From positions 1 through 64,000 of the forward strand of contig NZ_JAJMOX010000011.1 in the NCBI RefSeq assembly GCF_020991455.1: a stretch of 64,000 nucleotides of DNA, in the 5' to 3' direction. The stretch's first letter is position 1. Each line of letters begins with the position of its first letter. The translations under genes and the position numbers were made by a program. This stretch comes from Flavobacterium sp. JAS. GTDB taxonomy: Bacteria; Bacteroidota; Bacteroidia; Flavobacteriales; Flavobacteriaceae. Positions 38,423-56,779 of the stretch are shown here, piece by piece. The notes below the pieces were generated by a model. It was not told where the DNA came from. It saw only the letters and a program-made list of their open reading frames with translations, and ran no database searches.

Positions 38423-38436
38423 CGTAAAAAATTACA
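38423..38436. promoter_or_regulatory. Repressor operator candidate O2
   Basis: CGTAAAAAATTACA, same palindrome with one mismatch. It ends 7 bp before the repressor ATG, fitting autoregulation. Confidence 0.6.
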
Positions 38437-38443
38437 TCATTTT

Positions 38444-39219: not shown

Positions 39220-39304
39220 AAATACCGAAAATAATAGTTGTTCGTAATTTTACAATTTCCTGCCTGCCGGAATGATTTACTTTGTTTCTATAAAAATTAT
39301 AAAA

Positions 39305-40569: not shown

Positions 40570-40716
40570 ACAATTATTTTTGCTATAGTTTAGGGGTTAA
40601 TCTTTTGATTAATAGCATGTTCTAAATTATAAAAAAATATAATATGAAATAATATATAATCTTAAAAAGTAAATTTTTAAGATGCTGACTAAATATTGGA
40701 TAAGATATTAAATAGA

Positions 40717-40761
40717 AAATCGCAATTACTTAACATTTTGATAATTGCGATTTTTTTTTGT
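40717..40761 (-). terminator. ssrA-like terminator hairpin, outermost copy
   Basis: Stem AAATCGCAATTA/TAATTGCGATTT with a 13-nt loop, then nine T and GTG. It is nearly the same as the hairpin at 44545-44590. Both are followed by T-runs and TTTGTG, but here the next bases are AACTGGATC instead of the ssrA end GAGTCGCCGG. Could be the original chromosomal terminator of ssrA, displaced by insertions. Confidence 0.55.
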
Positions 40762-40923
40762 GAACTGGATCTGACTTGAGTTCAATATCTAATTTTTAGA
40801 TAAATTTAAGAGATTATGTACAAAAACAGGTACTTATACTCGTGTAGGTGTTTTTTTAAAATATTAGCTTTGTGTTTGTATTTCAGTGTGTTAGGTGTTT
40901 TTTGGTTTGAAATATTACAAATG

Positions 40924-40936
40924 TGTCGGTAAACTA
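40924..40936 (+). repeat. Arm-like direct repeat, left copy (patatin segment)
   Basis: TGTCGGTAAACTA. The partner at 44522-44535 is TGTCGGCTAAACTA in the same orientation. The pair flanks the patatin gene. Confidence 0.5.
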
Positions 40937-41040
40937 CCATAGTCGACGATATTTTTTGAGGTCTTACATTGGTATCTAAAAAACAAAATAGATACTTCCA
41001 AATATTCATTCGTATTTAGGTTAGCTAAAATAACAATAAT

Positions 41041-44000
41041 ATGGACATAGTAACCGATCTTACCGCAGAAGCAGTCTCTTATATTACACTATTTCAGGAT
41101 ATTTTAAAAAGTAAATCTGATATCGTTTTTCCGAAAGATTTGATAAAGAAAAGCGATTGGAAGCTTATTAAGGTAGCCGAATTACCTATTAAGGATTTGA
41201 CAGTTCATCAAAAAGAGAAAATAATTGATTTGGTCTGGCATAGCCCCACAAAAGACGATACTGATAGATTTGTCAAAGTATACTTGGACAGAACAGTTTC
41301 GCTTTTGCATTGGTTGTCAAGTAATATACCAGTCAATGAGAAAATAGCTGATAAATCACAATCTGGGGAAGAAACTAATGAACTCGTTTTGTTTAGGCCA
41401 CCCTTTTTCTGGCGACAGGCAATAAGGAGTGTTTTGTATAAGCAATCAGAAAAACGGCTAAAACTTGTAGAGATATTGCAATATATGCCACTGCAAATAA
41501 TCTTAGCAATGGCGGGAAAAGGTAAATTAGGTTACACTATAAGACTCTACCAATTCTATACAAAATTGCCTCAGGAGGATTCGGGAGTAGGTAAAACATG
41601 TAATAATTATGATCTTCTGGAATTTTCAGATAGAAATCTGCATTTTTTATTCTGGTCAACCAGGAGAACAGATGCCAAAAATTACCTTGAAAATGATCAG
41701 AGATTACTTGATGAGCTAAAAGATCAGGACTTTTCCCTTCCTTTTGAAACTTTGTTCAGAGAAGAGTTAATTGAGATTTCTAAAGCTAGAGTATCTAGGA
41801 ATACAGAATTTAATATTACCTCGAAAGAAGGTGATCCACAAAGGGATACATCTTTATTGTTTTCCGATAAAAAAGAAGAGGTTTTTGATCCCATGGGAAA
41901 AGCAGGCGAAATGCAGCTAATGGGAATTGCCTTGTCAGGTGGAGGTATTAGATCTGCTACTTTTAACTTGGGAATACTACAAAAATTGGCGAGTTTAAAT
42001 GTACTTTACAGATTTGATTACATGTCTACTGTATCAGGTGGTGGTTATATTGGTTCTTGGTTTACTTCATGGGTACACAGGTCAGGATCTTTTAGTAAAA
42101 TCAATGATCGTCTTTGCCCTGGAAAATCTCAAGATCCTTTAGCTGATGAAGTTCGTCCTATTAGATGGCTTAGGATGTTCAGTAATTATTTATCTCCTAA
42201 TGTTAGCATTATGTCTTCTGATGCATGGACATCCGGAATGACCTGGCTCCGTAATACATTTGTTAATCAGGTAATTTTGTTGTTAAGTCTTTTGACAGTC
42301 TTATCATTTATTTCCAATATTTATTCGGCTTGGATTTTTATTAAAAAAAATATGAATCAACAGGATGCTCTTCATATTTTTTGCTTCAGTTTTTTTATGT
42401 TTATAATAGGAGGGTTTTTGGTTGCAACGGCTATGCGTTCTTTTTATAATATTAATAAAAAAGAGTCAAACAAAGGATGTCTCAAGCAAGTTGATAAATT
42501 AATAATGCGTTTTACATGGAAATTCAACCAGACAAATTTAATTCCGCACTTACTAGTATTTTGGGGTGCAATTAGTGCATTAGTTATTAGCACCTATTTT
42601 GCTGCATATAAAGCGCCACCGCCAGGTGATGATAGGAGTTCGCTTTTGATGTATGTTTTCTCTTCGGCTTTTCTTGCCTTTTTTTTAGTAGCTCTTCGTG
42701 GTAATTACCATAAAAGATGGGATCTGATGGAAATTGGAAGAAAAAATGTCGACACAAAGGAAGATACTAAAGATAAAAATCTTTCTGGACAAATCCTGTT
42801 TGCAATCATAGGATCTACTTTGGCTGCTTCAGCTCTATTGGTATTTCTTTTAATGTTTTTCTGGTTGAATATAATTAGTATTTATGATTTTTCAGATAAA
42901 GTGCGAATAGATTTTAATAAAATATTTTTGGTTATTGGTATACCAATAATCCTTGAGATATTTTCATTAGCCGTGATTCTTAGAATGGCGCTTATGGGTA
43001 ATCTTTTTCCTGATTATCGAAGAGAATGGTGGGGCAGGATGGGAGGTTACATTCATCGCTTCATGCTGTTTTGGATGATTGTGAGCTTTGCAGCCCTGAT
43101 TATGCCAGATTTATGGAATAATTATATGGTAAGTTTACGGAATAATAATAGTTCTGTATGGTCTGTCGTTTGGGCTTGGAGTGGTTGGACAGCAATTATG
43201 GGATGGGGTTTAAAAAAAGCATTTGAATCTAAAGATGAAACCAAAACTACTACGAAAAGCTATATTACTATAATACTAAAAGTAATACCTTTTGTTTTTA
43301 TGATTGGGATATTGCTTATAGGTTCCTGGATTATGGAAATAATAAAAAATTGTGATTTTTTTTCAGGGCGAATACGAATAGAGGATAAGGCTTGGGGAAA
43401 CTTTTTTGTGACTTTAATTTTAGCAGCTATTACTTTATTGTTAAGCTGGCGTGTTGGAGTAAATGAATTTTCACTTCATTACTTCTACAGAAACAGGTTA
43501 ATCCGTGCTTTTCTAGGAGCAACACGAAGCAGGGAAGATAGAATAAAAACAGCTAACATATTTACCGGTTTCGATGCCAATGATGATCTTTTGCTATCTT
43601 CGATGCAAACGGATAATGGTTATTTTGGACCATTTCCTCTTATCAATTCCACACTAAATGCCACAGTAGTGAGCGCTTTGGATAGACAAGATCGTATGGG
43701 TGAGTCTTTTGTCTTTTCTCCATTATATTGTGGGTATGATTTTAGTCCTACACGTTCTTCCACCTATAATATTGACCATGTATATGAATATGGTTATAGG
43801 CCAACAGATAAGTTTTCTAATAAGAAAGGCGGGCCTACATTAGGAACTGCTATGGCTATATCAGGTGCTGCAATTAATCCTAACTGGGGGTATCATTCTT
43901 CGGCTACGATGGCATTTTTACTTACATTGTTTAATTTACGTCTTGGCTGGTGGATTGGTAACCCAAGACTTGATAAATGGAAGAATCCTGACCCAAATTT

Positions 44001-44508
44001 TGGTCTTTTGTATTTAATGCGGGATCTTATTGGTAAATCTGATATTAATATGGAATACGTATGTCTTTCTGATGGTGGCCATTTTGATAATATGGGATTA
44101 TATGAGCTTGTTAGAAGACGTTGTCAATATATTTTGATTGGAGATGCAGAGCAGGATCAGGAAAACACTTGCGAAGGACTTGCAAATGCCATTAGAAGGT
44201 GTCGTATTGATTTTGGTGTTGATATTGATTTTGGTGTCGAAATTGATAAAATCAAGGATAAAACCGAACATATTGCCAAGGGAACTATTGTATATCCGGG
44301 AGCTGGTAAACAGCCGGGCACAATCATATATATAAAAACAGTTATAACGGAAAAAGAATCTGTAGATGTAAAAGAGTATGCTTCAGCGAATAAAGATTTC
44401 CCGCAACAGTCAACAGGAGATCAATTTTTTGATGAAGCGCAGTTCGAGAGTTATCGCAAGTTAGGTTATGATTCAATTAAAACTATTTCACAATTATATC
44501 TACCATAA
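41041..44508 (+). CDS. Giant membrane-embedded patatin-like phospholipase
   Basis: Protein of 1155 residues. A soluble N-terminal region of about 290 residues has no recognised domain. The patatin oxyanion motif GGGIR is at 300-304. The nucleophile is S332 in STVSGGGYIG, where the usual GxSxG has lost its first Gly. About ten TM segments follow between 415 and 820. The catalytic-dyad Asp is D1011 in SDGGHFDNMGLYEL. Dyad residues are thus separated by about 680 residues containing the membrane block. Family members hydrolyse acyl chains of membrane lipids. Near the C-terminus an 18-bp duplication encodes IDFGVD/IDFGVE. It is the sole gene between two ssrA-type ends, so it may be defence or cargo. 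Confidence 0.85.
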   Translation: MDIVTDLTAEAVSYITLFQDILKSKSDIVFPKDLIKKSDWKLIKVAELPIKDLTVHQKEKIIDLVWHSPTKDDTDRFVKVYLDRTVSLLHWLSSNIPVNEKIADKSQSGEETNELVLFRPPFFWRQAIRSVLYKQSEKRLKLVEILQYMPLQIILAMAGKGKLGYTIRLYQFYTKLPQEDSGVGKTCNNYDLLEFSDRNLHFLFWSTRRTDAKNYLENDQRLLDELKDQDFSLPFETLFREELIEISKARVSRNTEFNITSKEGDPQRDTSLLFSDKKEEVFDPMGKAGEMQLMGIALSGGGIRSATFNLGILQKLASLNVLYRFDYMSTVSGGGYIGSWFTSWVHRSGSFSKINDRLCPGKSQDPLADEVRPIRWLRMFSNYLSPNVSIMSSDAWTSGMTWLRNTFVNQVILLLSLLTVLSFISNIYSAWIFIKKNMNQQDALHIFCFSFFMFIIGGFLVATAMRSFYNINKKESNKGCLKQVDKLIMRFTWKFNQTNLIPHLLVFWGAISALVISTYFAAYKAPPPGDDRSSLLMYVFSSAFLAFFLVALRGNYHKRWDLMEIGRKNVDTKEDTKDKNLSGQILFAIIGSTLAASALLVFLLMFFWLNIISIYDFSDKVRIDFNKIFLVIGIPIILEIFSLAVILRMALMGNLFPDYRREWWGRMGGYIHRFMLFWMIVSFAALIMPDLWNNYMVSLRNNNSSVWSVVWAWSGWTAIMGWGLKKAFESKDETKTTTKSYITIILKVIPFVFMIGILLIGSWIMEIIKNCDFFSGRIRIEDKAWGNFFVTLILAAITLLLSWRVGVNEFSLHYFYRNRLIRAFLGATRSREDRIKTANIFTGFDANDDLLLSSMQTDNGYFGPFPLINSTLNATVVSALDRQDRMGESFVFSPLYCGYDFSPTRSSTYNIDHVYEYGYRPTDKFSNKKGGPTLGTAMAISGAAINPNWGYHSSATMAFLLTLFNLRLGWWIGNPRLDKWKNPDPNFGLLYLMRDLIGKSDINMEYVCLSDGGHFDNMGLYELVRRRCQYILIGDAEQDQENTCEGLANAIRRCRIDFGVDIDFGVEIDKIKDKTEHIAKGTIVYPGAGKQPGTIIYIKTVITEKESVDVKEYASANKDFPQQSTGDQFFDEAQFESYRKLGYDSIKTISQLYLP

Positions 44509-44521
44509 ATTGTCGGAAGAA

Positions 44522-44535
44522 TGTCGGCTAAACTA
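44522..44535 (+). repeat. Arm-like direct repeat, right copy (patatin segment)
   Basis: TGTCGGCTAAACTA, one base longer than the partner at 40924-40936. It lies between the patatin stop and the terminator hairpin. Confidence 0.5.
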
Positions 44536-44544
44536 TAAAAATAA

Positions 44545-44590
44545 AAAATCGCAATTACCATAATGTTAGGTGATTGCGATTTTTTTTTGT
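44545..44590 (-). terminator. ssrA-like terminator hairpin, middle copy
   Basis: Stem AAATCGCAATTACC/GGTGATTGCGATTT with one T-G pair, a 9-nt loop and a run of T on the plus side. It terminates the patatin gene on the plus strand; A-rich sequence on the other side makes it bidirectional. It is immediately next to the duplicated ssrA end. Confidence 0.8.
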
Positions 44591-44601
44591 GGAGTCGCCG
44601 G
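44583..44601 (+). repeat. attL: duplicated ssrA 3' end
   Basis: TTTTTTGTGGAGTCGCCGG, identical to 56380-56398. Sequence similarity stops right after GCCGG (CTATAGC here, GAATCG in ssrA). That sets the crossover within these 19 bp. Confidence 0.85.
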
Positions 44602-44723
44602 CTATAGCGCTAATTATATCAGAGTTGGTTGTTAATAATTGATTATCAATAAGAAACGCTTGTTTTGTAGTAATTCTTATATTTGTTATAACTAAGTTTT
44701 TATAACTAAATATAGCATTATTG

Positions 44724-44741
44724 TCAACTAAATTGTCAACT
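44724..44741 (+). repeat. Integrase arm-type repeat, left
   Basis: TCAACTAAATTGTCAACT, two TGTCAACT-like units in tandem just before the integrase start. An identical 18-mer lies at 56325-56342 near the other end. Confidence 0.7.
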
Positions 44742-44742
44742 G

Positions 44743-45996
44743 ATGAAATACACTTTTAATCTTAAAGAGCCGAAGAGTGATAAAGAAACTTTGATTTTAT
44801 TTTCATGCTATTTTAAAAATGAGAATAAGAAATTTGTCTTTTCAACTGGTGAGAAAATAATACCTGAAAATTGGGACTTTGAAAATAGATTCCCTTTTGT
44901 AAATGGGAAAAAGAAATCAAAATTTGTTCAAAGTATAAAACTTCAGATGAATCGATATTCTGATTTATTTCTTGAAACAGAAAGCTTGTATAAAAGAATA
45001 AATGAACCTTTTACTTCGAAGAATTTAAAAAAAGTTTTTGACGAAGAATTTAAAAAAGCTCCGTCTGGGAAAAATACATTTTTTGATGCGTATGATGAGT
45101 TTACAGCCGAAAAGGAAAAAGGCAAAGAATGGTCGGCGTCAACAATTAAAAGGTATAAAAATATAAAGAATATTCTAGAAAAATTTGAAGCAGCTAGAAA
45201 ATTCAAATTGACATTTAGTAAGATCGATGAAACATTTCATCGTGAATTCACTTCCTATTGTATGGATGATTTAAAGCATATTAATAATACTTATGCTAGA
45301 AATCTAGGGCTTTTCAAAACCTTTATGTTTTGGGCTAGGAAAAATAAATTCACTTATAATGATAGTTTTACAGAATTTAAAAAAGTTGAGAGAGTAATTA
45401 CAAATCAAATTGCATTAACAATTGATGATTTGAATAAGTTGATGCAACACGAATTTGAAAGTGAAAAGCTAGGGAAAGTTCGTGATGTTTTTGTCTTTGC
45501 TTGTGTAACTGGTATGCGTTTTGGTGAATTATCTTTGATAAGAAGAAGTAATGTAACTAATGATTTTATTTTATTAAAAGAAAATAAAGATGAAACTAAA
45601 GAAACCAGAGAGATACCTTTAACCAATATTTCTAGATATATTTTATTAAAATATGATTATAAACTGCCTTTAATTGCCAATCAAAAACAGAATAAATATA
45701 TAAAAGAAGTATTTCAGGAGATGGAATACAATAATAAAGTTCAAAAAGTTACAACTAAAGGGAAAGAAAATATTAAAGAAGAAATGTTCTTCTACAATAG
45801 AATAAGTACCCATACAGCAAGAAGAACTTTTATTACTATGATGAAAAGACAAGGTAAAAGTGATAAATTAATTGCATCTATAACTGGACACAACGATATG
45901 AAAACTTTGAATCAATATTATCAGATTAGTGAACCAGAGAAAAAAGAAGCCATGGATGAAGTTTTTAATGTTGAATTGAAATTGAAAATCGTTTAG
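44743..45996 (+). CDS. int: Tyrosine recombinase (integrase)
   Basis: Site-specific recombinase of 417 residues that would catalyse integration into, and excision from, the ssrA 3' end. It has an N-terminal Arm-binding region (about 1-110), an SAM-like core-binding domain (about 115-210, FFDAYDEFTAEKEKGKEW), and a catalytic domain with R259 (TGMRFGEL), H357-x-x-R360 (HTARRTF), His in GHNDMKTL and the nucleophile Y392 or Y393 in NQYYQI. It starts 2 bp after an arm-type repeat and 141 bp from attL, the usual place for an integrase. The next gene begins 1 bp after its stop. Confidence 0.93.
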   Translation: MKYTFNLKEPKSDKETLILFSCYFKNENKKFVFSTGEKIIPENWDFENRFPFVNGKKKSKFVQSIKLQMNRYSDLFLETESLYKRINEPFTSKNLKKVFDEEFKKAPSGKNTFFDAYDEFTAEKEKGKEWSASTIKRYKNIKNILEKFEAARKFKLTFSKIDETFHREFTSYCMDDLKHINNTYARNLGLFKTFMFWARKNKFTYNDSFTEFKKVERVITNQIALTIDDLNKLMQHEFESEKLGKVRDVFVFACVTGMRFGELSLIRRSNVTNDFILLKENKDETKETREIPLTNISRYILLKYDYKLPLIANQKQNKYIKEVFQEMEYNNKVQKVTTKGKENIKEEMFFYNRISTHTARRTFITMMKRQGKSDKLIASITGHNDMKTLNQYYQISEPEKKEAMDEVFNVELKLKIV

Positions 45997-45997
45997 T

Positions 45998-46663
45998 ATG
46001 GATTTTAAAAAGAAATACTTTAAAAAGAAATCAGAATTTATTGATTTAAAGCCTCTTGATAATAAGAATACTAATAGTGAAATTAAATTAGGTGTAGTTA
46101 TTCTTATTATGGTTTTTCTTTTTTTGATTGCTTTTTATTTTTTCGAAAATGTTTTTCTGAAATCAGAAGGAATATTTAGACTAGTTGCTATAGGGATAAC
46201 GTTTTCGGCAGCAATTATGGTTGTTTTATATTTTCGTCTTTTGATTGATAAGACTGATAAGAGGAATAAAATAAATTCAGCAATAGTAAATTATGATTTT
46301 TCGAATGATGAAAATAATACAATAGAAGTTCGCTTTAAAAATTTTTTTAAAGATGAATTGTGTTATTTGAATTTTAAAAATAATGCCATTAAAATTGGAT
46401 TAATTGACCAAAATTGTAAGTGGTTGTACAAAGAAAAAGAAATTTTATACTTCGCTTTATTGTTTTCTAAGTTAAAAGAGAATAATTATTTTAAAAACAC
46501 AATTGAAAACAAAAATTTTTGTGAGGTTTCTAGCCAATTTTTAGATATTAAAATTAATTCAACGATGCTAACAAAATATGATCTTTCCAAGGAAAATAAT
46601 CTAATTAAAGCACATCATGAAAAATATTATGAAAATGATTATTCCATTTTTAACCAAATATAA
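45998..46663 (+). CDS. Two-TM hypothetical protein after integrase
   Basis: Protein of 221 residues beginning 1 bp after the integrase stop, so cotranscribed. Two TM helices are at about 32-52 and 61-82 (IKLGVVILIMVFLFLIAFYF and LVAIGITFSAAIMVVLYFRL). The cytoplasmic C-terminal domain of about 130 residues has no recognised motif. Strongly AT-rich and Lys/Asn-rich, as elsewhere in the element. Unknown function; small membrane proteins beside integrases can be immunity or exclusion factors, but nothing here shows that. Confidence 0.7.
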   Translation: MDFKKKYFKKKSEFIDLKPLDNKNTNSEIKLGVVILIMVFLFLIAFYFFENVFLKSEGIFRLVAIGITFSAAIMVVLYFRLLIDKTDKRNKINSAIVNYDFSNDENNTIEVRFKNFFKDELCYLNFKNNAIKIGLIDQNCKWLYKEKEILYFALLFSKLKENNYFKNTIENKNFCEVSSQFLDIKINSTMLTKYDLSKENNLIKAHHEKYYENDYSIFNQI

Positions 46664-46767
46664 TTCAACTCATTTTCAATTGAATTCAATTGAAGATATT
46701 GAATACAAATAAATTATAATTAATATGATTAAGTTATAAAATTGTAAAAAATTAAATCTACAATTTT

Positions 46768-47046
46768 ATGCAAAATCCATTTGAAACAATTCAATCAGAA
46801 TTGAAAGAGCTAAAAGGTTTAGTTGCACAACTTCTTACTAAACCAGAGAAAGATTTATCGAATAACATGTATACTGTCAAAGAAGCGGCAGAACTCTTGC
46901 ATGTGGATCGCCAGACCATTAGAAACCACATTGAAAATGGTAATATTAAGGCTTCTTCTATTGGGAGAAGAATTTTAATAAATCACGAAGAGTTATTTGA
47001 CTCTCTTAATGAAGTAAAATCCCTGAAATATAAAAGACAAGTATAG
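46768..47046 (+). CDS. Excisionase-family HTH protein
   Basis: 92 residues. A leading coiled-coil (about 1-28, FETIQSELKELKGLVAQLL) is followed by a MerR-like winged HTH (about 36-80, YTVKEAAELLHVDRQTIRNH then IGRRILINHEEL) of the HTH_17 group. Typical as recombination directionality factor or regulator in Bacteroidota integrative elements. The terminator stem at 47037-47068 overlaps its last codons. Confidence 0.88.
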   Translation: MQNPFETIQSELKELKGLVAQLLTKPEKDLSNNMYTVKEAAELLHVDRQTIRNHIENGNIKASSIGRRILINHEELFDSLNEVKSLKYKRQV

Positions 47047-47073
47047 AAAGCATCATTTCTATACTTGTTTTTT
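47037..47073 (+). terminator. Rho-independent terminator after HTH gene
   Basis: Perfect 13-bp stem ACAAGTATAGAAA/TTTCTATACTTGT, 6-nt loop, then a run of T. The left arm includes the stop region of the HTH gene. Confidence 0.85.
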
Positions 47074-47126
47074 TATTATCTAACCTATTGTATACACTAT
47101 ATATACAATAAAAAACATTGCACAAA

Positions 47127-48353
47127 ATGGAAGAAAAATATTTACGAGTAGGAACTTCCTATTTCAAAATTATAGATAAACCTTTAATATCTGGCGATAA
47201 AGTAAAAGTGATGGTTCGGTGGAATCGTGAAACAATCATTTCAGATCATGGAAAATCGTTTTTAAACGATATATCCAAATTAGATGGTTTTTGCTGTATT
47301 CCGAATCATTTTGGTTACCAGCAAATTGTAGATGATTTCTATAATACCTATCATGAACTGCCTAACCAACCAATAGCTAAGGATTTTTCAATTCATGAAC
47401 TCGAAAAATTGATTCCAAATTCACTGCAATTTATTCAACATATTTTTGGAGATCAAACGCAATTAGGCTTAGACTATATAAAACTTTTATATGAAAAACC
47501 TACGCAAACATTGCCAATTCTTTGTTTGGTAAGCAAAGAGCGATCGACAGGAAAAAGCTCTTTTATAAAGTGGTTGAAAGCAATTTTTGGAATGAATATG
47601 ACTTACATAAAAGGCGATTCATTTGGGTCGCAGTTTAATTCTGATTGGGCGAGTATGTTACTTGTAGCGATTGATGAAGTGTTTTTTGATAAAAAAGAAA
47701 TTACAGAACGTTTAAAGTACCTTTCTACGACTGACAAAGATAAAGTAGAAGCAAAAGGAAAGGATCGACAAGAAATTGAATTCTTTGCAAAATTTATTCT
47801 TTGTTCTAATAATGAAGATAATTTTATTCAAATAGACGAGGAGGAAATCCGTTTTTGGATTCGTAAAATTCGCACTATAAATACAGAAGATGTATTCTTT
47901 CTTAAAAAACTGAACAAAGAAATTCCGTATTTCTTAAAGTACCTGCAAATGAGAAATTATTTTTCCGAGCAAAAAACGAGAATGTGGTTTAAACCCGAAC
48001 AGATTATGACCGCTTCCTTGTTAAAGCTTGTAAATCGAAATAAAGAAGAAATTCTGATGCTTGAATTGATACATGAGTGTTTTGAAAAAATGGAAGAGGA
48101 TGAGTTGAAATTGGCTCCTAATGATATTTTCATTCTACTGAGGAGGCAAAATAACAGAATAAATATTTCTGCTAATGAAATAAGAAATATTCTGAAACGA
48201 TGGGGTTTTACTCCTGAAGATAATACGAAATCTTATTGTGGAATTGAATTATTGTCGCATGGTGAATATGTGAAAGTAGATCGAAGAGGACGTTTTTATA
48301 CTATCAAAAAGATTTTGTTTTATAAAATATTTGATGCTTTGATGCAAAATTAA
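47127..48353 (+). CDS. Primase-helicase-like replication protein
   Basis: Protein of 408 residues from ATG 47127 (MEEKYLRVGT); a TTG nine bases earlier is less likely. It resembles the mobile-element primase-helicase (DUF5906/SF3-like) proteins, with Walker A-like KERSTGKSSF (about 133-142), Walker B LLVAIDEVFF and sensor-type ILCSNNEDNF. Members unwind or initiate replication of the excised circle. Its last codons already contain two of the TTGATGC repeats that continue into the intergenic region, a common position for a replication origin. Confidence 0.82.
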   Translation: MEEKYLRVGTSYFKIIDKPLISGDKVKVMVRWNRETIISDHGKSFLNDISKLDGFCCIPNHFGYQQIVDDFYNTYHELPNQPIAKDFSIHELEKLIPNSLQFIQHIFGDQTQLGLDYIKLLYEKPTQTLPILCLVSKERSTGKSSFIKWLKAIFGMNMTYIKGDSFGSQFNSDWASMLLVAIDEVFFDKKEITERLKYLSTTDKDKVEAKGKDRQEIEFFAKFILCSNNEDNFIQIDEEEIRFWIRKIRTINTEDVFFLKKLNKEIPYFLKYLQMRNYFSEQKTRMWFKPEQIMTASLLKLVNRNKEEILMLELIHECFEKMEEDELKLAPNDIFILLRRQNNRINISANEIRNILKRWGFTPEDNTKSYCGIELLSHGEYVKVDRRGRFYTIKKILFYKIFDALMQN

Positions 48354-48527
48354 TATAAAGTCCTGTAATTGAGCTAAAGAGATCTGCATCAAACCTTGCA
48401 TCAAACTAAAAAACAATCTTTTTTGATGCAAAACTGATGCAGGACAAAAATAAAGTGATGCATTGATGTAGCTATTGATGCAATGTAATCTTAATATAAT
48501 CAATGGATTAGGTGGTATTTGCATCAA
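48331..48527. repeat. Iteron-like cluster of TTGATGCA repeats
   Basis: Ten copies of TTGATGCA or one-base variants lie in about 200 bp. Direct: 48331, 48339, 48423, 48434, 48455, 48463 and 48475. Inverted (TGCATCAA): 48385, 48397 and 48520. They sit between the primase-helicase and the CHC2 primase genes and spill into the former. Density and mixed orientation suggest a replication origin or binding region for a replication protein. Confidence 0.75.
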
Positions 48528-48624
48528 AATATCAAAAAAAGTAAAAATTATATTTCTTTTTTTCATTGGCAAATGAACAGACTTGTGCGAAATCAAATAG
48601 AAGATTTATTAAAAAAAAACAATT

Positions 48625-49557
48625 ATGGAAAAGTTCAATTGTAAAATTGCAAATCAAATTGATTTAGTCAATTATCTTAAAACATTGGGGCATGAGCCAT
48701 CAAAAATAAAAAATCAGGATTATTGGTATCTATCACCATTTAGAAATGAAAACACACCCTCTTTTAAAGTAAATCAAAAATTAAATTCATGGTATGACCA
48801 TGGATTAGGCAAGGGGGGAAATGTAGTTGATTTCGGGATTGAATATTTTAGATGTACAGTTTCTGAATTTTTACAACTTTTAAATGGTAAAAGTATTTCC
48901 TCCGGTATAAGTTTATCACTTAAGAATGACAATCGACAGTATTCAAGTCTAAGAATTGCAAATGAAAAGAAAGATAATCCTCTTGATAAAATTGTCATTG
49001 TTGATGTACGCACATTGGAAAATAAGTTGTTGATAGCTTATTTAAATAACCGAAGCATTTCACAAGAGATCGCGAGACAACATTGCAAAGAGGTTGATTT
49101 TTGTTTAAATAATCGAAAGTATATTGCAATTGGATTTCAGAATATTTCAGGAGGATATGAATTACGTAGTGAAAATTTTAAAGGTAGCAGCTCACCAAAA
49201 GACATCACTTTCATAGATGCCCAAGCAAAATCAGTAGTCGTTTTTGAAGGCTTTTTTGACTACCTCTCTTATAAAATGATGAATCAAAAATCAGTTAATC
49301 AACAAACAAATTTCCTGATACTTAATTCACTGTCTTTTTTTAAGAAGTCTATGCAATTAATGGAAAAACATGAGAGAGTTGATCTCTATTTAGACAGAGA
49401 TACAGGAGGTGTAAAATGTACTAATGAAGCTCTACAAAGAGATTCTACAAAATATACCAACCAAAGTTTTTTATATGAGCAAAAGAAAGATTTAAACGAA
49501 TGGTTAAACCAGGGAAAGCAAGTTAAACAAGGTCATAATTTTAGGAGATCTATATGA
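48625..49557 (+). CDS. CHC2-zinc-finger/Toprim primase
   Basis: Primase-like protein of 310 residues. The N-terminal zf-CHC2-type domain (about 1-95) has YWYLSPFRNENTPSFKVN and WYDHGLGKGGNVVDF. A Toprim domain (about 190-290) has the acidic motif VVFEGFFDYLSY and LYLDRDTGG. It is a constant component of Bacteroidota mobilizable elements and would prime replication of the transferred strand or excised circle. It follows the iteron-like region and precedes the oriT-like palindrome and mob genes. Confidence 0.9.
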   Translation: MEKFNCKIANQIDLVNYLKTLGHEPSKIKNQDYWYLSPFRNENTPSFKVNQKLNSWYDHGLGKGGNVVDFGIEYFRCTVSEFLQLLNGKSISSGISLSLKNDNRQYSSLRIANEKKDNPLDKIVIVDVRTLENKLLIAYLNNRSISQEIARQHCKEVDFCLNNRKYIAIGFQNISGGYELRSENFKGSSSPKDITFIDAQAKSVVVFEGFFDYLSYKMMNQKSVNQQTNFLILNSLSFFKKSMQLMEKHERVDLYLDRDTGGVKCTNEALQRDSTKYTNQSFLYEQKKDLNEWLNQGKQVKQGHNFRRSI

Positions 49558-49569
49558 CGTCCGAGTGGT

Positions 49570-49605
49570 AGCCAGCTATGTTTTGGTAAAACCAAAACGC
49601 TGGCT
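49570..49605. promoter_or_regulatory. Candidate oriT palindrome
   Basis: Inverted repeat AGCCAGC-TATG-TTTTGGT / ACCAAAA-C-GCTGGCT, 75 bp upstream of mobC and next to ATGCTATCACATTCGTTGAG. A strong palindrome directly ahead of the MobC/relaxase operon is the expected location of oriT. The nick site is not identified. Confidence 0.6.
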
Positions 49606-49679
49606 CCCCTCATGCTATCACATTCGTTGAGAGGATTTTTTTCATGCTGCCGCATTCAAAAAATAAATGATAAGAGACT

Positions 49680-50057
49680 ATGGAAGAGAAAGAAATTAAA
49701 AAAAATACAGGAGGTAGACCCAAAAAGGCTGTAAAAAGAGATCAGCTTATGGCAATTAAATGTACACTCTACGAGCGTAAAATAATTGAAACCAAAGCTA
49801 AAAAAGCAAATCTTACCGTTTCCGAATACCTTCGTGAAATTGGACTCACAGCAAAGATAGATTACAGAAATAAAGCTCTTCCAAAAGAAATTCTAAGCTT
49901 TACCGGAGTGCTCAACCATATGGCAGCCAACCTGAACCAAATTGCTAAAAAGAGAAATAGCAATGATGAATTAAGTCCGCTTGAAAGGGCAGAATTAAAA
50001 GTGCAGTCAGGTCAGGTTAAAGATCTTGCTGTCCAAATTAAAAACTTTATGTCATGA
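49680..50057 (+). CDS. mobC: MobC-like relaxosome accessory protein
   Basis: 125 residues. A ribbon-helix-helix-like N-terminal half (KCTLYERKIIETKAKKANLT then VSEYLREIGL) precedes the C-terminal MobC segment (FTGVLNHMAANLNQIAKKRN). It helps the relaxase bind and melt oriT. Its stop overlaps the relaxase start by 4 bp (ATGA), so they are translationally coupled. Confidence 0.88.
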   Translation: MEEKEIKKNTGGRPKKAVKRDQLMAIKCTLYERKIIETKAKKANLTVSEYLREIGLTAKIDYRNKALPKEILSFTGVLNHMAANLNQIAKKRNSNDELSPLERAELKVQSGQVKDLAVQIKNFMS

Positions 50058-51073
50058 TAGGTCATGTAAGCATAGGCAGCTCTTTTTACCATTGCATTAG
50101 CTACTGTCTGGAAGATAAAAGAGAATTGTCCGAAGAGAAAAAGCTTGCACTTGCAATGCAAGATCATTTACAGCATAAAGAGCGTGCAGAAGTATTAGAA
50201 TACAATAAATGCTTCGGAAACAAATATGAGCTTACTGGGCAGTTTAAGGATGTTAGAAAATTAAGCAGGCGTATTGAAAAACCAATGTTGCATCTAACCC
50301 TGCGTTTAGCCCCGGAAGATACATTGACCAAAGAACAATTGAGAGAAGTTGGCAGAGAATGCGCTAAGGAGTTTGGTATAGCAGACAACCAATACATCTG
50401 TGTACTGCATAAGGATACCAAAGAGCAACACATTCATATTGCAGCCAATCGTGTTGGATTTGACGGCAAAGTAGCCAATGACAGCAATAGCTATAAACGC
50501 ATGGCTGAACTTTGTCGTCGTCTTGAAAAGAAATACGGTCTTCAAGAAGTATTAAGCCCAAGAGCATTCCTGTCCCCTAAAGACAGGTTATTGCCTCGTC
50601 ATGACAGTAGAAAAGAAAAACTAAAAGCAGATATCCAACAGACATTAAAGTCTGTCAGTTCTTATTTATCATTTGAGAGACAGATGAGAGATTTGGGGTA
50701 TAAAGTTCTTAAAGGCAGGGGAATTTCTTTTATAGATGATAAAAAAGTAAAAATAAAGGGGAGCGAAGTTGGTTTTTCATTAACAAAAATTGAAAAGATA
50801 TTACGCCATAAAGAGCAACTTGTGATAAAAAATACAAGAGAAGAAAAAAAACATAATAAAGACAGGCAGTCAATATCCAATTCTTTCAATACTGGAAAGC
50901 AAAACGAGGAAAAGCAAAGCTATAACTCAGGTAGAACAGGGGAGGAAGTTGTTAAAGAGATTTTAGGGTTTACAGGTCAGCTAACGAATTCTGAATATGA
51001 ACCGGATTATATTGATCCTGAATTAATGAGAAGACTCCAAAAGAAAAAAAAGAAGTCATCATTAAGGAGATAA
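50054..51073 (+). CDS. mobA: MobA/VirD2-type relaxase
   Basis: Relaxase of 339 residues that would nick oriT and pilot the strand into the recipient. N-terminal motif I region is MIGHVSIGSSFYHCISYCLE. Motif III HIHIAANR gives metal ligands H126 and H128. The YxxR/Y nucleophile cannot be fixed with certainty (Y12 and Y17 are candidates). The C-terminus is basic and low-complexity (KKKKKS), without helicase or primase domains. No coupling protein is encoded in the element, so conjugation machinery must come from elsewhere. Confidence 0.9.
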   Translation: MIGHVSIGSSFYHCISYCLEDKRELSEEKKLALAMQDHLQHKERAEVLEYNKCFGNKYELTGQFKDVRKLSRRIEKPMLHLTLRLAPEDTLTKEQLREVGRECAKEFGIADNQYICVLHKDTKEQHIHIAANRVGFDGKVANDSNSYKRMAELCRRLEKKYGLQEVLSPRAFLSPKDRLLPRHDSRKEKLKADIQQTLKSVSSYLSFERQMRDLGYKVLKGRGISFIDDKKVKIKGSEVGFSLTKIEKILRHKEQLVIKNTREEKKHNKDRQSISNSFNTGKQNEEKQSYNSGRTGEEVVKEILGFTGQLTNSEYEPDYIDPELMRRLQKKKKKSSLRR

Positions 51074-51092
51074 TATTTTAAAAAATAATAGT

Positions 51093-51644
51093 ATGGAAAC
51101 AGATGGAAACAAAGGATATATAGAACGAGAAACATTACAATTAGTATTGGAGGAATTTACACAGGAACAGAAAACAAATAATCAACATATTGAGGCGCTT
51201 GTTATTGCAGTTAATAACGTAGGCAATAAAATAGATGCCTTTAAAAAGGAGGATAATACAGCAAAAAGTGTTTCAGAGACATTGGATATTAAAGCAATAG
51301 AGACTATCCTGCAAAAAGGCTTCCTAGATATTAAATTTATGATTGGCAGGCAGCCAAAAAGTATCGTTAGGAAATTTCAGATTTTGTTATTTCCAGAACA
51401 AGATGCAAAACTGTTTTATAAAATTGTTTTTGGAAGGTGGTTTTTATGGCTTGTTATAATGGTAGCCCTAAGCAATCTTTACAACTGGGGAATACATTAT
51501 AGCGACAATAACAAAGAAATTGAAATGCAACAAATTCAAAACGATAGGATAAGGAAAGCCTGGGAATATATGTATAGTAATAATGATAAAGAAACTAAAA
51601 AGCTTATGAAAAAGGCATATGTAAACTCTCTAGAAAGTAAATGA
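51093..51644 (+). CDS. One-TM coiled-coil protein after relaxase
   Basis: 183 residues, 19 bp after the relaxase stop and likely in its operon. An N-terminal coiled-coil (about 1-75) is followed by a TM helix at about 115-133 (RWFLWLVIMVALSNLYNW) and a charged C-terminal tail. Proteins of this shape often follow relaxase genes in Bacteroidota mobilizable elements. A role in docking the relaxosome at the membrane is plausible but not shown. Confidence 0.75.
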   Translation: METDGNKGYIERETLQLVLEEFTQEQKTNNQHIEALVIAVNNVGNKIDAFKKEDNTAKSVSETLDIKAIETILQKGFLDIKFMIGRQPKSIVRKFQILLFPEQDAKLFYKIVFGRWFLWLVIMVALSNLYNWGIHYSDNNKEIEMQQIQNDRIRKAWEYMYSNNDKETKKLMKKAYVNSLESK

Positions 51645-52199
51645 CGATGGAAACTTGAATTAAAATAATTTCTTTTATTCAATTAAGTAAATAAAGTTGG
51701 AGATTTATAAAGGATTTTTTGTCTTAAAAAATGGTAGGCTGCATTTAAAAATTAAGACTTATTTTTCCCGATACAGAAATTGGCAACTTACTGTTTAGTA
51801 GGTCTACCGTATTTTGAGGTATAGCAGAGGGACAAATTTTTGCAAAATATAGCAAACAAACCGTAGTGCTTTTTTGATAGGAGTATAAAATTTTGTTAAA
51901 GTATGAAAACGGACTGTTTAAGAAAATATTAACAAACATAATTTAACTTAAATTTTTTAAAAAAAAATAGTTAGATTCAATTTTTTAACTAATATCAAAT
52001 ATGTAATTGTGATTTGAAACCTTTATGTTCATCATAAATTAAAAACCTCCAAAGTCATATGATTTTGGAGGTTTTTCGTTTAATGGGATTGTATGATCTT
52101 TCTAGCCAATTCAAAACTTATAGAAAACGAATAATTGAATCAGATGTAAAAGGGAGAGATTTAAATTATCTAAACAAGAAATTTAATTTTTCGTTCTAA
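51645..52199. other. 555-bp gap between mob operon and cargo
   Basis: AT-rich with no credible gene; a 64-codon minus-strand frame at 51745-51939 is not protein-like. A bidirectional terminator lies at 52041-52076. It marks the border between the transfer module and the cargo. Confidence 0.55.
52041..52076. terminator. Bidirectional terminator between convergent genes
   Basis: AAAAACCTCCAAA pairs with TTTGGAGGTTTTT around a short loop, giving T-runs on both strands. It serves the mob operon (plus) and the DUF1254 gene (minus). Confidence 0.8.
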
Positions 52200-53807
52200 T
52201 CATTTCACTTCTTCAATCTCTCCTGGTTTCCATGTTTTATCAAAGAAAGGCTGTAGTGGGCTGTATAACCTTAATAATGTAAACCAACCTTTTCCAGGAA
52301 TCGTTTGAATCCAATTACCCTCATTAACATTTGCTGGTTTTTTTGGAGAAAAATAAATTGTATAAGTGCCATCTGAATTTGCTACCACTGCAGGTGTAGG
52401 ATAACTTTGACTTCCAGCTCTTGGATAACGCTGCGGAGTTTGAAGCATTGATCTTGTTTGATTATCATATAAAGTCAACGACCAGAATTTGGCTGCTGGA
52501 ATATTTGCAGGCAATGTCAATTTATATGTTTTTGCTCCATTTAATGCTACAGATTTTGAATCGAAAAAATTACCTAAGTATTGTGAACCAATATTTGTTA
52601 AACGCATACACATAGCCGGTGTAATACCAGTGGCAGAATAAAACATACCAATACGGGCATTTAATTTTTTGGCACCATCATCAGGAAATTGTTTTACACC
52701 TTCTTTTGTAATCATCGGTGGTGGAGTTTGAAACTCATAACCACCAACAAATAAAGGGTTTACCCAATGGCTATCTTCGCCGTAATAATTGAATCCTTCT
52801 TCTGGCCTTGGTGTAAAAGAGATCGTACGACTTATTGCATTGCCCATTGCTGCAGATTTAATCAGTATTTTTTTTAATCTTTCATTTGGAGTAAATGGCT
52901 TATCTTTTACAATACCAATGGAAGCCAAATAACCTGCTATTTCAGGATCTAAAGCATTAGCAGGCTGAGCTTGAATTGCACTGTTTAACATTTCGAAAAA
53001 AGAATAATCAGCAGGAGGAATGGTGTTCATTTCTTTTCCCGTTCCTTCTACAAACTTTAAATCACTTGGTTTAGAAATAGGTGCAAGCGTTGACTGTCCA
53101 TTTAAAAAAGAGCCAATACTTGAACCCCAGCTTCCAGGGTTATAAGAGTATATTTTTAAATTCTTTTTTACGTTTTCATCTGTAGGCTTAGGGTCATTAT
53201 TTTCTAAAAATGCTCTTCCTAAAATTCCCACTTGCATGGTTTTACTATGATAAATAAAATATCCCCCTTCAGGTAAAGTTCCTTTGTAACCCGGTGGCAC
53301 GATTAAGTATTTTCCACCCATACCACGGTCAGGACCTGGCAATCCAAAATCAGTAACCCAACCCCAAAACATATCATCAATAACACCTAAAGTATTCGGA
53401 GGTGTCTCAACAATGATGGGCCCTTTACTTAAATCAGCATAAGTCCAGAAATAGTAAGTATCTGCGTTAGCGGTAAGAAAAAGAGATTTTGAGTCCATAA
53501 GTCCCGAGAAAACAAGCACATCATTATCGTTTATCCCTGCTTTTTTAAATCCGTTTATTATTGCATACTGGGATACAGCTGCATATCCATTTATAAATGC
53601 ATCGACACCATGCACATAATCAATTTCGTCATATAATTTTTGTGCAGTTGCGGCATCCGGCATGCCATCCTTAAAATTTAATGTACCGAGCGATGACTGA
53701 ACTTCATCAGGAGTAGAAATAGATTGTAAAGTGCTTTTTGGTACCTGTGCATTGCTAATTAAAGATATACTGCCTATTATTAATAATGATTTGATTGTTT
53801 TTTTCAT
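52200..53807 (-). CDS. Exported DUF1254/DUF1214 protein (cargo A)
   Basis: 535 residues with a signal peptide (MKKTIKSLLIIGSISLISNA). The N-terminal DUF1254 region (about 60-200) has VYGVDAFI-like HGVDAFINGYAAVSQYAI and PPNTLGVIDDMFWGWVTDFG. The C-terminal DUF1214 region (about 400-535) has LPANIPAAKFWSLTLYD and LPGKGWFTLLRLYSPLQPFF. Molecular function of the family is unsettled. A paralogue lies divergently at 54343-55812, and each has a GTTTCA-N10-TGAAAC palindrome upstream. Cargo of the ssrA element. Confidence 0.88.
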   Translation of the reverse strand: MKKTIKSLLIIGSISLISNAQVPKSTLQSISTPDEVQSSLGTLNFKDGMPDAATAQKLYDEIDYVHGVDAFINGYAAVSQYAIINGFKKAGINDNDVLVFSGLMDSKSLFLTANADTYYFWTYADLSKGPIIVETPPNTLGVIDDMFWGWVTDFGLPGPDRGMGGKYLIVPPGYKGTLPEGGYFIYHSKTMQVGILGRAFLENNDPKPTDENVKKNLKIYSYNPGSWGSSIGSFLNGQSTLAPISKPSDLKFVEGTGKEMNTIPPADYSFFEMLNSAIQAQPANALDPEIAGYLASIGIVKDKPFTPNERLKKILIKSAAMGNAISRTISFTPRPEEGFNYYGEDSHWVNPLFVGGYEFQTPPPMITKEGVKQFPDDGAKKLNARIGMFYSATGITPAMCMRLTNIGSQYLGNFFDSKSVALNGAKTYKLTLPANIPAAKFWSLTLYDNQTRSMLQTPQRYPRAGSQSYPTPAVVANSDGTYTIYFSPKKPANVNEGNWIQTIPGKGWFTLLRLYSPLQPFFDKTWKPGEIEEVK

Positions 53808-53847
53808 CTTTTCATTTTTAATTGATTAATAATTCATTGAATTCTAA

Positions 53848-53855
53848 CAAAAGTA
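53848..53855 (-). promoter_or_regulatory. -7 box of cargo gene A
   Basis: TACTTTTG on the minus strand matches TAnnTTTG, 41 bp before the start. The palindrome at 53899-53920 lies 44 bp further upstream, in an activator-like position. Confidence 0.5.
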
Positions 53856-53898
53856 CAATAAGTACTAAAAACCCTAGTTTTTATCTACAGTCTAATCC

Positions 53899-53920
53899 GT
53901 TTCAACTTATAATATGAAAC
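53899..53920. promoter_or_regulatory. Palindrome GTTTCA-N10-TGAAAC, copy 1
   Basis: 22 bp, 20 of 22 identical to copy 2 at 54239-54260. It lies 92 bp from the start of cargo gene A. Confidence 0.7.
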
Positions 53921-54238
53921 CAGAATTTAAATTTATTGCTGGTTGTTTAGCGGTGTATATATTCCCCCTTAACAGATTATTTTTTCTCAGTTTTATACTA
54001 CCGGTGAAGTATTATGAAGTTCTATTTTCTAATTTAATCATGAATTTATTAAATAGAGGAATATCTGATTTTGAAATTTCATAATTAGAACATTTGAGAA
54101 AATCTAACATTTCTAGTTTGAATATTTGAACATTTTTTTTAAGTTTTTACAATTCTTTTTTTCTGAATTACGATTCGAACGCTTAAGATAATTTAAACTC
54201 GAATAGAGATTTTTGAAACCGTAACATTGATAAAACTT

Positions 54239-54260
54239 GTTTCAAATTATAAAATGAAAC
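54239..54260. promoter_or_regulatory. Palindrome GTTTCA-N10-TGAAAC, copy 2
   Basis: The symmetric part extends to 12-bp arms AAACTTGTTTCA/TGAAACAAGTTT (54233-54266). It lies 83 bp from the start of cargo gene B, mirroring copy 1. Confidence 0.7.
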
Positions 54261-54342
54261 AAGTTTAGAAATGCCCGTTTAAAAAATCATATGTAATTTT
54301 ATTTAATAAGTCTTAAAGCAAAGAATAAATAAATTTTTAAGT

Positions 54343-55812
54343 ATGAAAAATAAATATCTAGTTATTCTGATAACTTCTTTGATTTTAAATCAGGGATGCC
54401 AAAGAAATGCAGTCTCAAATGAAGTTACGATATCTAAACCTCAAACTGATGCTAAAATTACAATGGATGGAGAACTGCCTTCAAAAGAATCTATTCCACT
54501 ATTGTTCGATGAAATGGATTTTCAGCAGGCCACACAATGTTACTTATGGGGATTGCCAATTGTGGCTTTCGCAGAATGGCAAAATATTCATTACAAAACA
54601 TTTAATGCATCGAGTAATGATTTGGTCTTTTATAATTCATACAATGATCGTTTAGGGATTTTAACGGGTAATGCAACAACACCTTACATTATGTCATTTA
54701 TTGACTTAGCCGCAAACGGACCAACAGTTATCGAAATGCCAGCCGGACATACAGCTGGAGGACTTGCAGATTTCTGGCAAAGAGAGCAGGCTGTTATTGG
54801 AGAAATGGGACCAGATAAAGGAAAAGGAGGTAAATACATATTAGTACCACCAACGATGAAAGATTTTAAACCGGCAGGTTATTTTATAGTTCCTTGTAAT
54901 ACGGTTAATATGTTTTTTGGATTTAGAGCTTTAGATCCGGACCCAAAAGTGACCGAGACATTGTTGAAACAGGTAAAAATTTATCCTTATGATAAACGTG
55001 CTAATCCAACGCCAACAAAGGTAGTAAGTCCGCCGGCAGGAAAAAAATGGTACGGAATTCAGCCAACCGGAATTGCCTATTGGGAACGACTTCATGCTAT
55101 TTTGCAAAATGAACCTGTTGAAGAACGTGATCTTTTTTTTATGGAGTGGCTTAAAAACCTTGGCATAGAAAAAGGAAAACCTTTTAGCCCGGATGAACAT
55201 CAGAAGAAAATCCTAATTGCTGCTGCTGAGAAAGGGCAGCAAATGGCAATGGCAAATTCATTCAGTAAACGTTTTAAGGACGTAAAACATTGGCCGGATA
55301 AAAAATGGGATTATGTAATGGTTATTAAAGATCCATCGCAACATGCTGATTCTTATGATGAATTTTTTGAAAGAAGTTCTTATTTCTATGAAGCAGTTAC
55401 GTACTCAAAAGCTATGATTACAAAAATACCAAATGTAGGTCAAGCATATCTGGGATCTTATTATGATAACAATGGAAATTGGCTGGACGGAAGCAAAAAC
55501 TACACATTAAATGTTCCTGCAAATCCGCCGGCAGTTAATTTCTGGTCGATTACTATTTATGACGTAGCAACACGTTGTTTAATTGATAATGCTCAAAAAA
55601 ACGCCGATTTATCTTCTCGTAAAGACTTAATCAAAAATGCCGACGGATCAGTTGATTTATATTTTGGACCAAAAGCACCAGCGGGAAAAGAGAAAAATTG
55701 GGTTCAAACTTTACCTGGAAAACATTGGTTTACCTACATGCGTTTTTATGGACCAACTGCAGCTTATTTTGATAAAAGCTGGAAAATGGACGATATTAAA
55801 GAAGTGAAATAA
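54343..55812 (+). CDS. DUF1254/DUF1214 lipoprotein (cargo B)
   Basis: 489 residues with a lipoprotein signal (lipobox around GCQRN, Cys about 19). DUF1254-like part (about 60-200): FQQATQCYLWGLPIVAFAEW and GPTVIEMPAGHTAGGLADFW. DUF1214-like C-terminus: NVPANPPAVNFWSITIYDVA, LPGKHWFTYMRFYGPTAAYF. It is shorter than cargo A and membrane-anchored instead of soluble. The divergent arrangement and shared palindromes suggest co-regulation. Substrate or partner unknown. Confidence 0.88.
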   Translation: MKNKYLVILITSLILNQGCQRNAVSNEVTISKPQTDAKITMDGELPSKESIPLLFDEMDFQQATQCYLWGLPIVAFAEWQNIHYKTFNASSNDLVFYNSYNDRLGILTGNATTPYIMSFIDLAANGPTVIEMPAGHTAGGLADFWQREQAVIGEMGPDKGKGGKYILVPPTMKDFKPAGYFIVPCNTVNMFFGFRALDPDPKVTETLLKQVKIYPYDKRANPTPTKVVSPPAGKKWYGIQPTGIAYWERLHAILQNEPVEERDLFFMEWLKNLGIEKGKPFSPDEHQKKILIAAAEKGQQMAMANSFSKRFKDVKHWPDKKWDYVMVIKDPSQHADSYDEFFERSSYFYEAVTYSKAMITKIPNVGQAYLGSYYDNNGNWLDGSKNYTLNVPANPPAVNFWSITIYDVATRCLIDNAQKNADLSSRKDLIKNADGSVDLYFGPKAPAGKEKNWVQTLPGKHWFTYMRFYGPTAAYFDKSWKMDDIKEVK

Positions 55813-56324
55813 GAAAAAAAACATAATCTATAAAGCAAAATGAATAACACAGCCTTTCTATGATTGGTTTAATTGCTTTTTTGTTGTAAAAAGAATGTAG
55901 ATCTCCCTACAAAAGAGGAAACAAAGTTAAGGGTGTAGTATATGCACTCTTAATTTCTTTATATACCTCCTCGTGTTTTTTCTTCTGAGTTGGGCAATGT
56001 AGTGTTTAAGAGATTTTTATATTTTAAGTTTAAAAAATCGATCTATGAAGACTTACCAATAAAAAATAAAGATTTTGATTTTTCCCAGTATAATTAAAAA
56101 TTAATTTACTTTTTTAATCATACTACTTCAATCTATATCTTAATTGTACCTGAAATACCTTTTGCTTTACTCAAGAATGTTCAGTTAATTTCTGGAAGTG
56201 TGAAATTAACTTAATTCATATTTTTTGTATTGAAAGATAGTTTCTATTGATTAATACTGTAAAGAGATGTTTTTAATTTGTAAGAGGAAGAGTTCTCGAA
56301 TTGTTTTTATTAACAATGAAAACA

Positions 56325-56342
56325 TCAACTAAATTGTCAACT
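56325..56342 (+). repeat. Integrase arm-type repeat, right
   Basis: TCAACTAAATTGTCAACT, identical to 44724-44741 and in the same orientation, 38 bp inside attR. Confidence 0.7.
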
Positions 56343-56348
56343 AAAAAA

Positions 56349-56385
56349 CAAAAAGCCTGTAAACAAAGAGTTTACAGGCTTTTTT
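56349..56385 (-). terminator. Terminator at the ssrA 3' end, brought by the element
   Basis: Stem AAAAAGCCTGTAAAC/GTTTACAGGCTTTTT with a 5-nt loop and T-runs both ways. It serves ssrA, whose mature end is only 2 bp away. Its sequence differs from the AAATCGCAATTA-type hairpins at 44545 and 40717. Confidence 0.8.
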
Positions 56386-56398
56386 GTGGAGTCGCCGG
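56380..56398 (+). repeat. attR: ssrA 3' end
   Basis: TTTTTTGTGGAGTCGCCGG, overlapping the acceptor/T arm of ssrA. Identical to attL at 44583-44601. Confidence 0.85.
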
Positions 56399-56779
56399 GA
56401 ATCGAACCCGGGTCCAAACAAGCAACTAAAGAGCTTTCTACACGTTTATTTCCTGATTGGATTTTCGATGTTAAGCTAGGTCAGGAACAACCACTCAACA
56501 CTTATCTTCTTAATTTCGAATTCCACCCGAAGCTCATGGAAATCTAGGTCTATTTTTACGGTTCCCCTATACTGACCGCCACAAACCAAGGCTTTCAAGG
56601 AGAATCCAGCTTCCCTATCTGATAGGGACGTGGCTAATCTTACTATAATTCAGATTATGCAGCTAAAGCGTAGTTATTTTCGCCGTGTAAAATTGTAAGA
56701 TCTTATATTTACGAGCAAGGTCTCAATGCTCGACGTGCTTACTTTTCAATTCGACTTGCTGTCAAAACCAGTCGACCCC
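56387..56779 (-). ncRNA. ssrA: Transfer-messenger RNA (tmRNA)
   Basis: About 393 nt, rescues stalled ribosomes and tags the nascent peptide. The 5' end GGGGTCGACTGGTTTTGACA is the conserved tmRNA start. It pairs with the 3' end CGACTCC to form the acceptor stem, and the T arm GGGTTCGATTCCCGG is present. The resume reading frame at 56655-56684 encodes GENNYALAA then stop. The terminal CCA is not encoded. The gene is the insertion target of the neighbouring element and remains intact. Confidence 0.97.

Follow-up and report, generated by a model that had tools for sequence, protein, structure and literature searches.

A patatin-like protein with its predicted catalytic residues separated by a membrane block, encoded near ssrA in Flavobacterium

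The window, a stretch of 64,000 nucleotides from Flavobacterium sp. JAS (contig NZ_JAJMOX010000011.1, positions 1 to 64,000), carries a gene for a patatin-like protein, here called a split patatin, which stands alone between an AraC-type gene and an integrase gene (Table 1). Its reading frame is complete, has no internal stop and gives one match within its own genome. The 3.8-kb segment that holds it (40763-44539) is flanked by one hairpin on each side, and the hairpin pattern occurs in the whole genome in these two copies only. Between this segment and ssrA sits a mobilizable element (IME), bounded by the 19-bp repeat at 44583 and 56380 and encoding a tyrosine-type integrase together with proteins of replication-type and mobilization functions. 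The element looks complete, with integrase, Xis-type, DUF5906/VapE-like, Toprim, NikA/MobC and relaxase genes and two DUF1254/DUF1214 genes. To the left of the patatin segment, genes at 37064-39127 match DUF3164 and S24 peptidases and are perhaps phage-like; a further, transporter-like neighbour is presumably of the EamA type.

Table 1. Features of the split-patatin locus in the window, with the evidence for each.
Feature	Position	Strand	Evidence
Distal ssrA-terminator-type hairpin with remaining GTG of the att core	40711..40762		repeat search; G412 flank
Split-patatin gene, 1155 aa	41041..44508	+	ORF, Pfam match, conserved motifs, dN/dS <0.25 in three pairs of relatives
N-terminal extension, about residues 1-290	41041..41910	+	alignments
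Oxyanion-hole motif GGGIR, residues 300-304	41938..41952	+	conservation; hhalign to ordinary patatins 98.7%, E 1.8e-16
Predicted nucleophile S332 in TVSGGG	42034..42036	+	invariant in alignments A1, A8; Ser in 20/20 aligned
Membrane block, residues 406-807, 9-10 TM helices	42256..43461	+	hydropathy
Second patatin half, about residues 860-1155: INSTLNA, AISGAAINPNWG, DGGHFDNMG	43618..44505	+	motif order of ordinary patatins
DGGH with predicted catalytic Asp D1011	44071..44082	+	invariant in A1, A2, A7; Asp in 20/20 aligned
Proximal ssrA-terminator-type hairpin with att core TTTTTTGTGGAGTCGCCGG	44540..44601		hairpin type of G303, directly at ssrA
Mobilizable element (IME) with own integrase	44583..56398		19-bp direct repeats; integrase, relaxase, excisionase-type, NikA/MobC
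tmRNA (ssrA), insertion target	56386..56779	-	tmRNA prediction

An earlier note on this DNA had described the gene as the only cargo between two ssrA-type ends. For the proximal end this stands, as the full 19-bp core is present; for the distal end it stands in part, a hairpin (40711-40759) being followed only by the GTG left of the att core (...TTTGTG). Genome G412 supports the reading of the distal hairpin as a true ssrA end, since it joins the same flank to an ssrA att core with no patatin. G412 has both flanks and the neighbouring mobile element and thus represents an empty site: its AraC-side flank corresponds to window positions 39227-40758 at 82% identity and its IME side to 44520-51675 (7.2 kb) at 93% identity, the two being separated by no more than about 65 bases. 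G303, the closest by tmRNA (98%) among 60 genomes, has a hairpin of the window's type immediately after ssrA.

With an empty site in a relative, a full att core at its proximal end and, at its distal end, a hairpin and GTG that may be what is left of another, the segment can be compared with integrase-less, CIME-like ssrA islands. In the part of the Dehalococcoides report considered here (PMC3146451), tandem segments downstream of ssrA carry att-type repeats, 15 of them have no integration module, and the integrase-less islands are suggested to be cis-mobilizable elements. The likeness lies in tandem segments downstream of ssrA with att-type repeats. In the window, however, a single 3.8-kb segment carries just one gene and its distal att is degenerate, and the Dehalococcoides recombinase is of the serine type as opposed to the tyrosine-type integrase of the element next to our segment.

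The contents of the ssrA slot differ among relatives. In G768 the patatin gene ends 72 bases from ssrA, in convergent orientation, and in G710 the two are kept apart by a 7.7-kb segment that encodes McrB and McrC (L155 735-8430). G768 is the matching site without this segment, at whose distal junction in G710 a piece about as short as that in the window is kept, TCCACAAAAAA. G310 shares the far flank and has ssrA but no patatin; the genes beside ssrA in G310 and G768 are ones we take to be RluA, MFS and DUF763. G393 retains a remnant, 34-37 residues of the patatin end, and an LCAT-like hydrolase next to ssrA. The ssrA segment of G301 (L085 13088-17404), with a decayed distal att, carries genes for an Lrp regulator, an SBF transporter, a methionine-synthase-like protein and MesX. 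In G303, a 4.7-kb ssrA segment (L081 14365-19075) with att repeats at its ends holds two genes that match no Pfam family. Neither of these two segments gave a match to the window's integrase. The window patatin is closest to the copies of G768 and G710 (65%), and a single arrival may account for all the ssrA-linked copies. The gene is not always on an ssrA island, an idea we rejected: three of the seven Flavobacterium carriers are ssrA-linked (the window, G768 and G710), and G245, G776, G409 and F. collinsii have it elsewhere as far as looked. No tRNA or tmRNA gene is seen in the 35-40 kb of sequence at the patatin locus in G245, G409 and G099, nor in about 13 kb in G776 and F. collinsii; in these last two the gene is near contig ends, and an ssrA may lie farther off.

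As to the protein, GGGIR, S332 and D1011 in DGG are all found where the earlier note had put them, and its statement that a large membrane block separates the catalytic Ser and Asp is borne out by hydrophobic segments along the 679 residues between S332 and D1011. Pfam Patatin (PF01734) matches residues 296-354 with 27.7 bits, exactly at the cut-off, and this covers only the first 57 positions of the model. The TM block matches no Pfam family, and the whole protein finds no match in PADLOC or PHROGs and one in NCBIfam, far below its cut-off. The nucleophile motif T330-V-S332-G-G is a relaxed form that indeed has no leading Gly, as had been remarked earlier. We do not regard this as a defect, because the first position is S, T or V in all six ordinary patatins aligned. 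The N-terminal extension is common to the Flavobacterium, G099 and Hymenobacter members, and the remaining aligned members have a short or different one; it is possibly a regulatory part.

The motifs are strongly conserved. Across nine members whose genomes belong to the phylum of the window (alignment A1, with F. collinsii as a row that has no first part), G300-T307, S329-G335 and D1011-H1014 are invariant. Pfam Patatin matches all nine at E up to 0.1, so that together with this invariance chance can be set aside as the origin of the motifs. GGGIRSAT, STVSGGG and DGGH are nearly invariant in ten wider rows, one of them the window, with L113 represented by its C-terminal part only. The gene is also under purifying selection: dN/dS (NG86) is about 0.11 for G768 against G710 (0.024/0.218), 0.19 for G245 against G776 (0.183/0.983) and 0.21 for the window against G768 (0.260/1.213), the last two ratios being rough because their dS values are near 1 or above.

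Six ordinary, contiguous patatins follow the order SGG - NAT..TG..F - ASS.FP - DGG.YDN.G, and the split-patatin family follows VSGGG - TM block - INSTLNA - FSP - AISGAAINPN - DGGHFDNMG. The columns of Ser, Y816 and Asp hold S, Y and D in all members of a 20-member alignment. In this set the distance from S to Y, inside which the membrane block lies, ranges from 199 to 810 residues, and that from Y to D stays at 146-203 residues, as expected for an insertion into a fixed fold; S and DGG are 176-198 residues apart in five of the six ordinary patatins. A profile of the first half matches the ordinary patatins at 98.7% (E 1.8e-16, hhalign), and the DGG-region profile matches them weakly (47.7%, E 1.9e-4 across 40 columns). 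When the weak DGG match is taken together with the order of the motifs and the spacing across the 20 members, a single interrupted patatin domain becomes the most likely explanation. Compared with solved structures, the second half gave no convincing profile match; the profile of ordinary patatins matched PlpD (5fqu) and ExoU (4akx), and that of the split family weakly matched cPLA2-delta (5ixc, E 0.027). The window protein thus resembles the patatin-like phospholipases in its GGG-x-R oxyanion motif, Ser nucleophile, DGG Asp and motif order, and is set apart from them by its N-terminal extension and by the roughly ten TM helices that separate Ser from Asp. As its domain is not contiguous, we file it as a variant and not as an ordinary patatin. 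A narrow-term search, mostly of literature outside subscription, returned no recognisable description of a patatin domain split by a TM block.

The earlier count of about ten TM helices is fair, given 9 segments by Kyte-Doolittle at 1.6, all between S332 and D1011, and ten in the block (411-803) by GES at 1.0. Kyte-Doolittle at 1.2 adds one segment at 140-158. The GES scale yields 13 segments in total, and the remaining three, inside the patatin halves (327-345, 862-880 and 955-973), are read as buried fold segments. In 18 members, Kyte-Doolittle places 5-14 hydrophobic segments between the motifs in every member and none after D (contig member L103 ends after D); before S there are none in 17 and two in one Streptomyces member, for which a wrong S served as the reference point, with no effect on the order. 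Membrane proteins tend to follow the positive-inside charge rule. With ten GES helices, the loops of the window protein that would be cytoplasmic hold 8, 8, 5, 5 and 5 K+R, and the other loops 2, 2, 3, 1 and 4. Among 20 members at GES 1.0 the helix count is even in 15 and odd in five, and all 15 even-count members carry more K+R in those loops that a topology with both halves inside would place in the cytoplasm. Loop charges thereby predict a cytoplasmic location for both patatin halves. The even count itself is not proven, because it shifts with the GES threshold, from 15 members at 1.0 to 12 at 1.3 and 8 at 1.6.

In this study, we propose, with a probability of roughly 0.6, that the split patatin is an integral inner-membrane lipid hydrolase of the patatin type with an interrupted fold and an S332-D1011 dyad facing the cytoplasm; its substrate class is probably that of a phospholipase A or lysophospholipase. 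About ten TM helices would interrupt the patatin fold between the nucleophile region and the half with INSTLNA, FSP, ASGAA and DGG, and an even helix number would return both halves to the cytoplasmic face. S332 and D1011 could then meet as one Ser-Asp dyad, which, held at the membrane surface, would attack lipids of the bilayer. Activity may be restrained until a trigger arrives, possibly via the 290-residue N-terminal part. An AlphaFold2 model built from three sequences only (the window protein, L031 and L103) reached a mean pLDDT of 31.7, with every residue below 50, values too low to say how S332 and D1011 lie in the fold. The reverse arrangement, in which the TM bundle is the functional unit, as a transporter or channel, and the patatin parts are regulatory or inactive, would fit the large share of the protein taken up by a TM block that belongs to no Pfam family; we consider it very improbable, as the catalytic motifs are invariant and the TM block is the part most variable in sequence and length.

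A more far-reaching form of the proposal is doubtful in our view, namely that a single-gene intramembrane phospholipase acts as a stand-alone sensor-effector that moves via the ssrA hot spot. Here, the ten-helix bundle would draw bilayer lipid into the patatin active site, closure of the two cytoplasmic halves would be needed to assemble this site, and a trigger would be sensed by the N-terminal 290 residues. More generally, a lipase built around a membrane bundle would give cells a new means of controlling lipid hydrolysis from inside the bilayer. Because the gene sits at a mobile hot spot for which nature provides an empty site, its function is directly testable.

Split patatins are a sparse but widespread bacterial family. 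When 296 phylum genomes were queried with the protein at E 1e-3, 24 gave a match, which in 17 was confined to a short stretch; the family profile, with the own genome counted, found 7/395 in the phylum, 7/398 in Flavobacterium and 10/395 in the class. G798, a genome assigned to the genus of the window, is identical over 4549 bases to a Flavobacterium collinsii record, which places the window in Flavobacterium. The gene is accessory, not core; the earlier note had named core genes at a fixed chromosomal locus as the opposite outcome, and the Flavobacterium homologues occupy several places. On plasmids, 45 of 72,556 records match, among them 25 in Rhizobium, Sinorhizobium, Cupriavidus and Methylobacterium and two in Streptomyces. 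A phage reservoir was rejected, with no match in 50,697 phage records and, over three scans of viral contigs, one and the same contig (L103). This 62-kb IMG/VR contig has a family member (7941-9932) at its end; eight more of its proteins were scanned, and six match only PHROGs of unknown function and two match none. In the Hymenobacter member (L113 6443-10110) the Ser half and the Asp half are in two frames, and a natural two-gene split was rejected: the frames overlap, so that a frameshift or sequencing error is likelier. Existing annotations read 'patatin-like phospholipase family protein', 'patatin/phospholipase-related protein', 'hypothetical protein' and, once, 'GMC oxidoreductase'. The last is a Mesorhizobium onobrychidis CDS (L133 12697-17385) that spans the patatin match and is a possible fusion.

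What such a hydrolase does for its host can be approached from its neighbours. Lipid turnover or fatty-acid release in ordinary physiology, covering membrane remodelling or the supply of oxidative enzymes and moved about as a niche gene, is possible on a guarded view. Animal-type haem peroxidase, RoxA-like cytochrome c, catalase and PAP2 each match two of 106 near neighbours, alpha/beta hydrolases lie near rhizobial members, the LCAT-like hydrolase adjoins the G393 remnant, and one Flavobacterium group has a stable locus. Yet the gene is very sparse for a housekeeping enzyme, and its neighbours differ from group to group. A role in envelope lysis, in which the lipase and a cell-wall hydrolase open the cell, is improbable: a lysozyme or muramidase gene lies directly upstream in Hymenobacter and two Rhizobium plasmids, and a phage-tail-sheath-like gene lies near the G136 member (L037 14847-16289), but this makes three of about 30 loci with a wall hydrolase directly upstream, the neighbours being partly identified, and none was noticed in the Flavobacterium loci.

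The third possibility, about as likely as lipid turnover and no more than possible, is an anti-phage effector, i.e., a self-contained or signal-gated abortive-infection lipase that acts on the cell's own membrane upon infection and travels as cargo of the ssrA hot spot. It would suit an accessory, patchy gene (7/398 Flavobacterium) between ssrA-type ends with an empty site in G412, and the presence of McrBC in the same slot of G710. Single relatives also lie near conflict genes: the Mesorhizobium relative adjoins ThsB-TIR and Nmad2, the Streptomyces relative PycTM and the Bradyrhizobium relative E1/JAB and a small patatin, and caspase-type peptidases occur near the Sinorhizobium and Rhizobium relatives. 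The earlier note had called the ssrA setting typical for defence genes. The place at ssrA is confirmed, but the step to defence is weak: with McrBC in one genome and metabolic genes or an LCAT-like hydrolase in others, location alone does not mean defence. Four Flavobacterium carriers have the gene at other chromosomal places, and its neighbours on several plasmids are plainly metabolic. No enrichment appeared when near and farther neighbours were compared in a PADLOC scan, 45 families being matched by 106 near proteins and 75 by 109 farther ones (E 1e-8), a comparison that is unsound as a control because both sets were edited by hand. These numbers refer to matched families rather than to proteins, and a single protein can be matched by many near-identical models. 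The near set started from 175 ORFs no more than three genes away; it was trimmed by hand, several very long proteins were omitted, and annotated genes, among them those for PycTM and E1/JAB, took the place of some ORFs. For the far set, 150 ORFs were drawn at random from 201, and the draw was likewise trimmed by hand and supplemented with undrawn annotated genes, including the ThiF, JAB, nucleotidyltransferase and caspase genes of S. chiapasense.

CapV, a CBASS effector, is a soluble patatin encoded in the same operon as a cyclase, and no cyclase gene was found beside the split patatin at the window locus. Membrane-lipid hydrolysis, predicted here, would be the chemistry shared with the patatin effectors that, in the part of the source considered, occur in CBASS (PMC12657218); the split patatin differs in being membrane-embedded and in its missing PADLOC match. 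On a Mesorhizobium plasmid island (L117, L137), seven genes annotated as TIR-type surround the split patatin, which makes a Thoeris-like group conceivable in which the patatin would serve as the effector.
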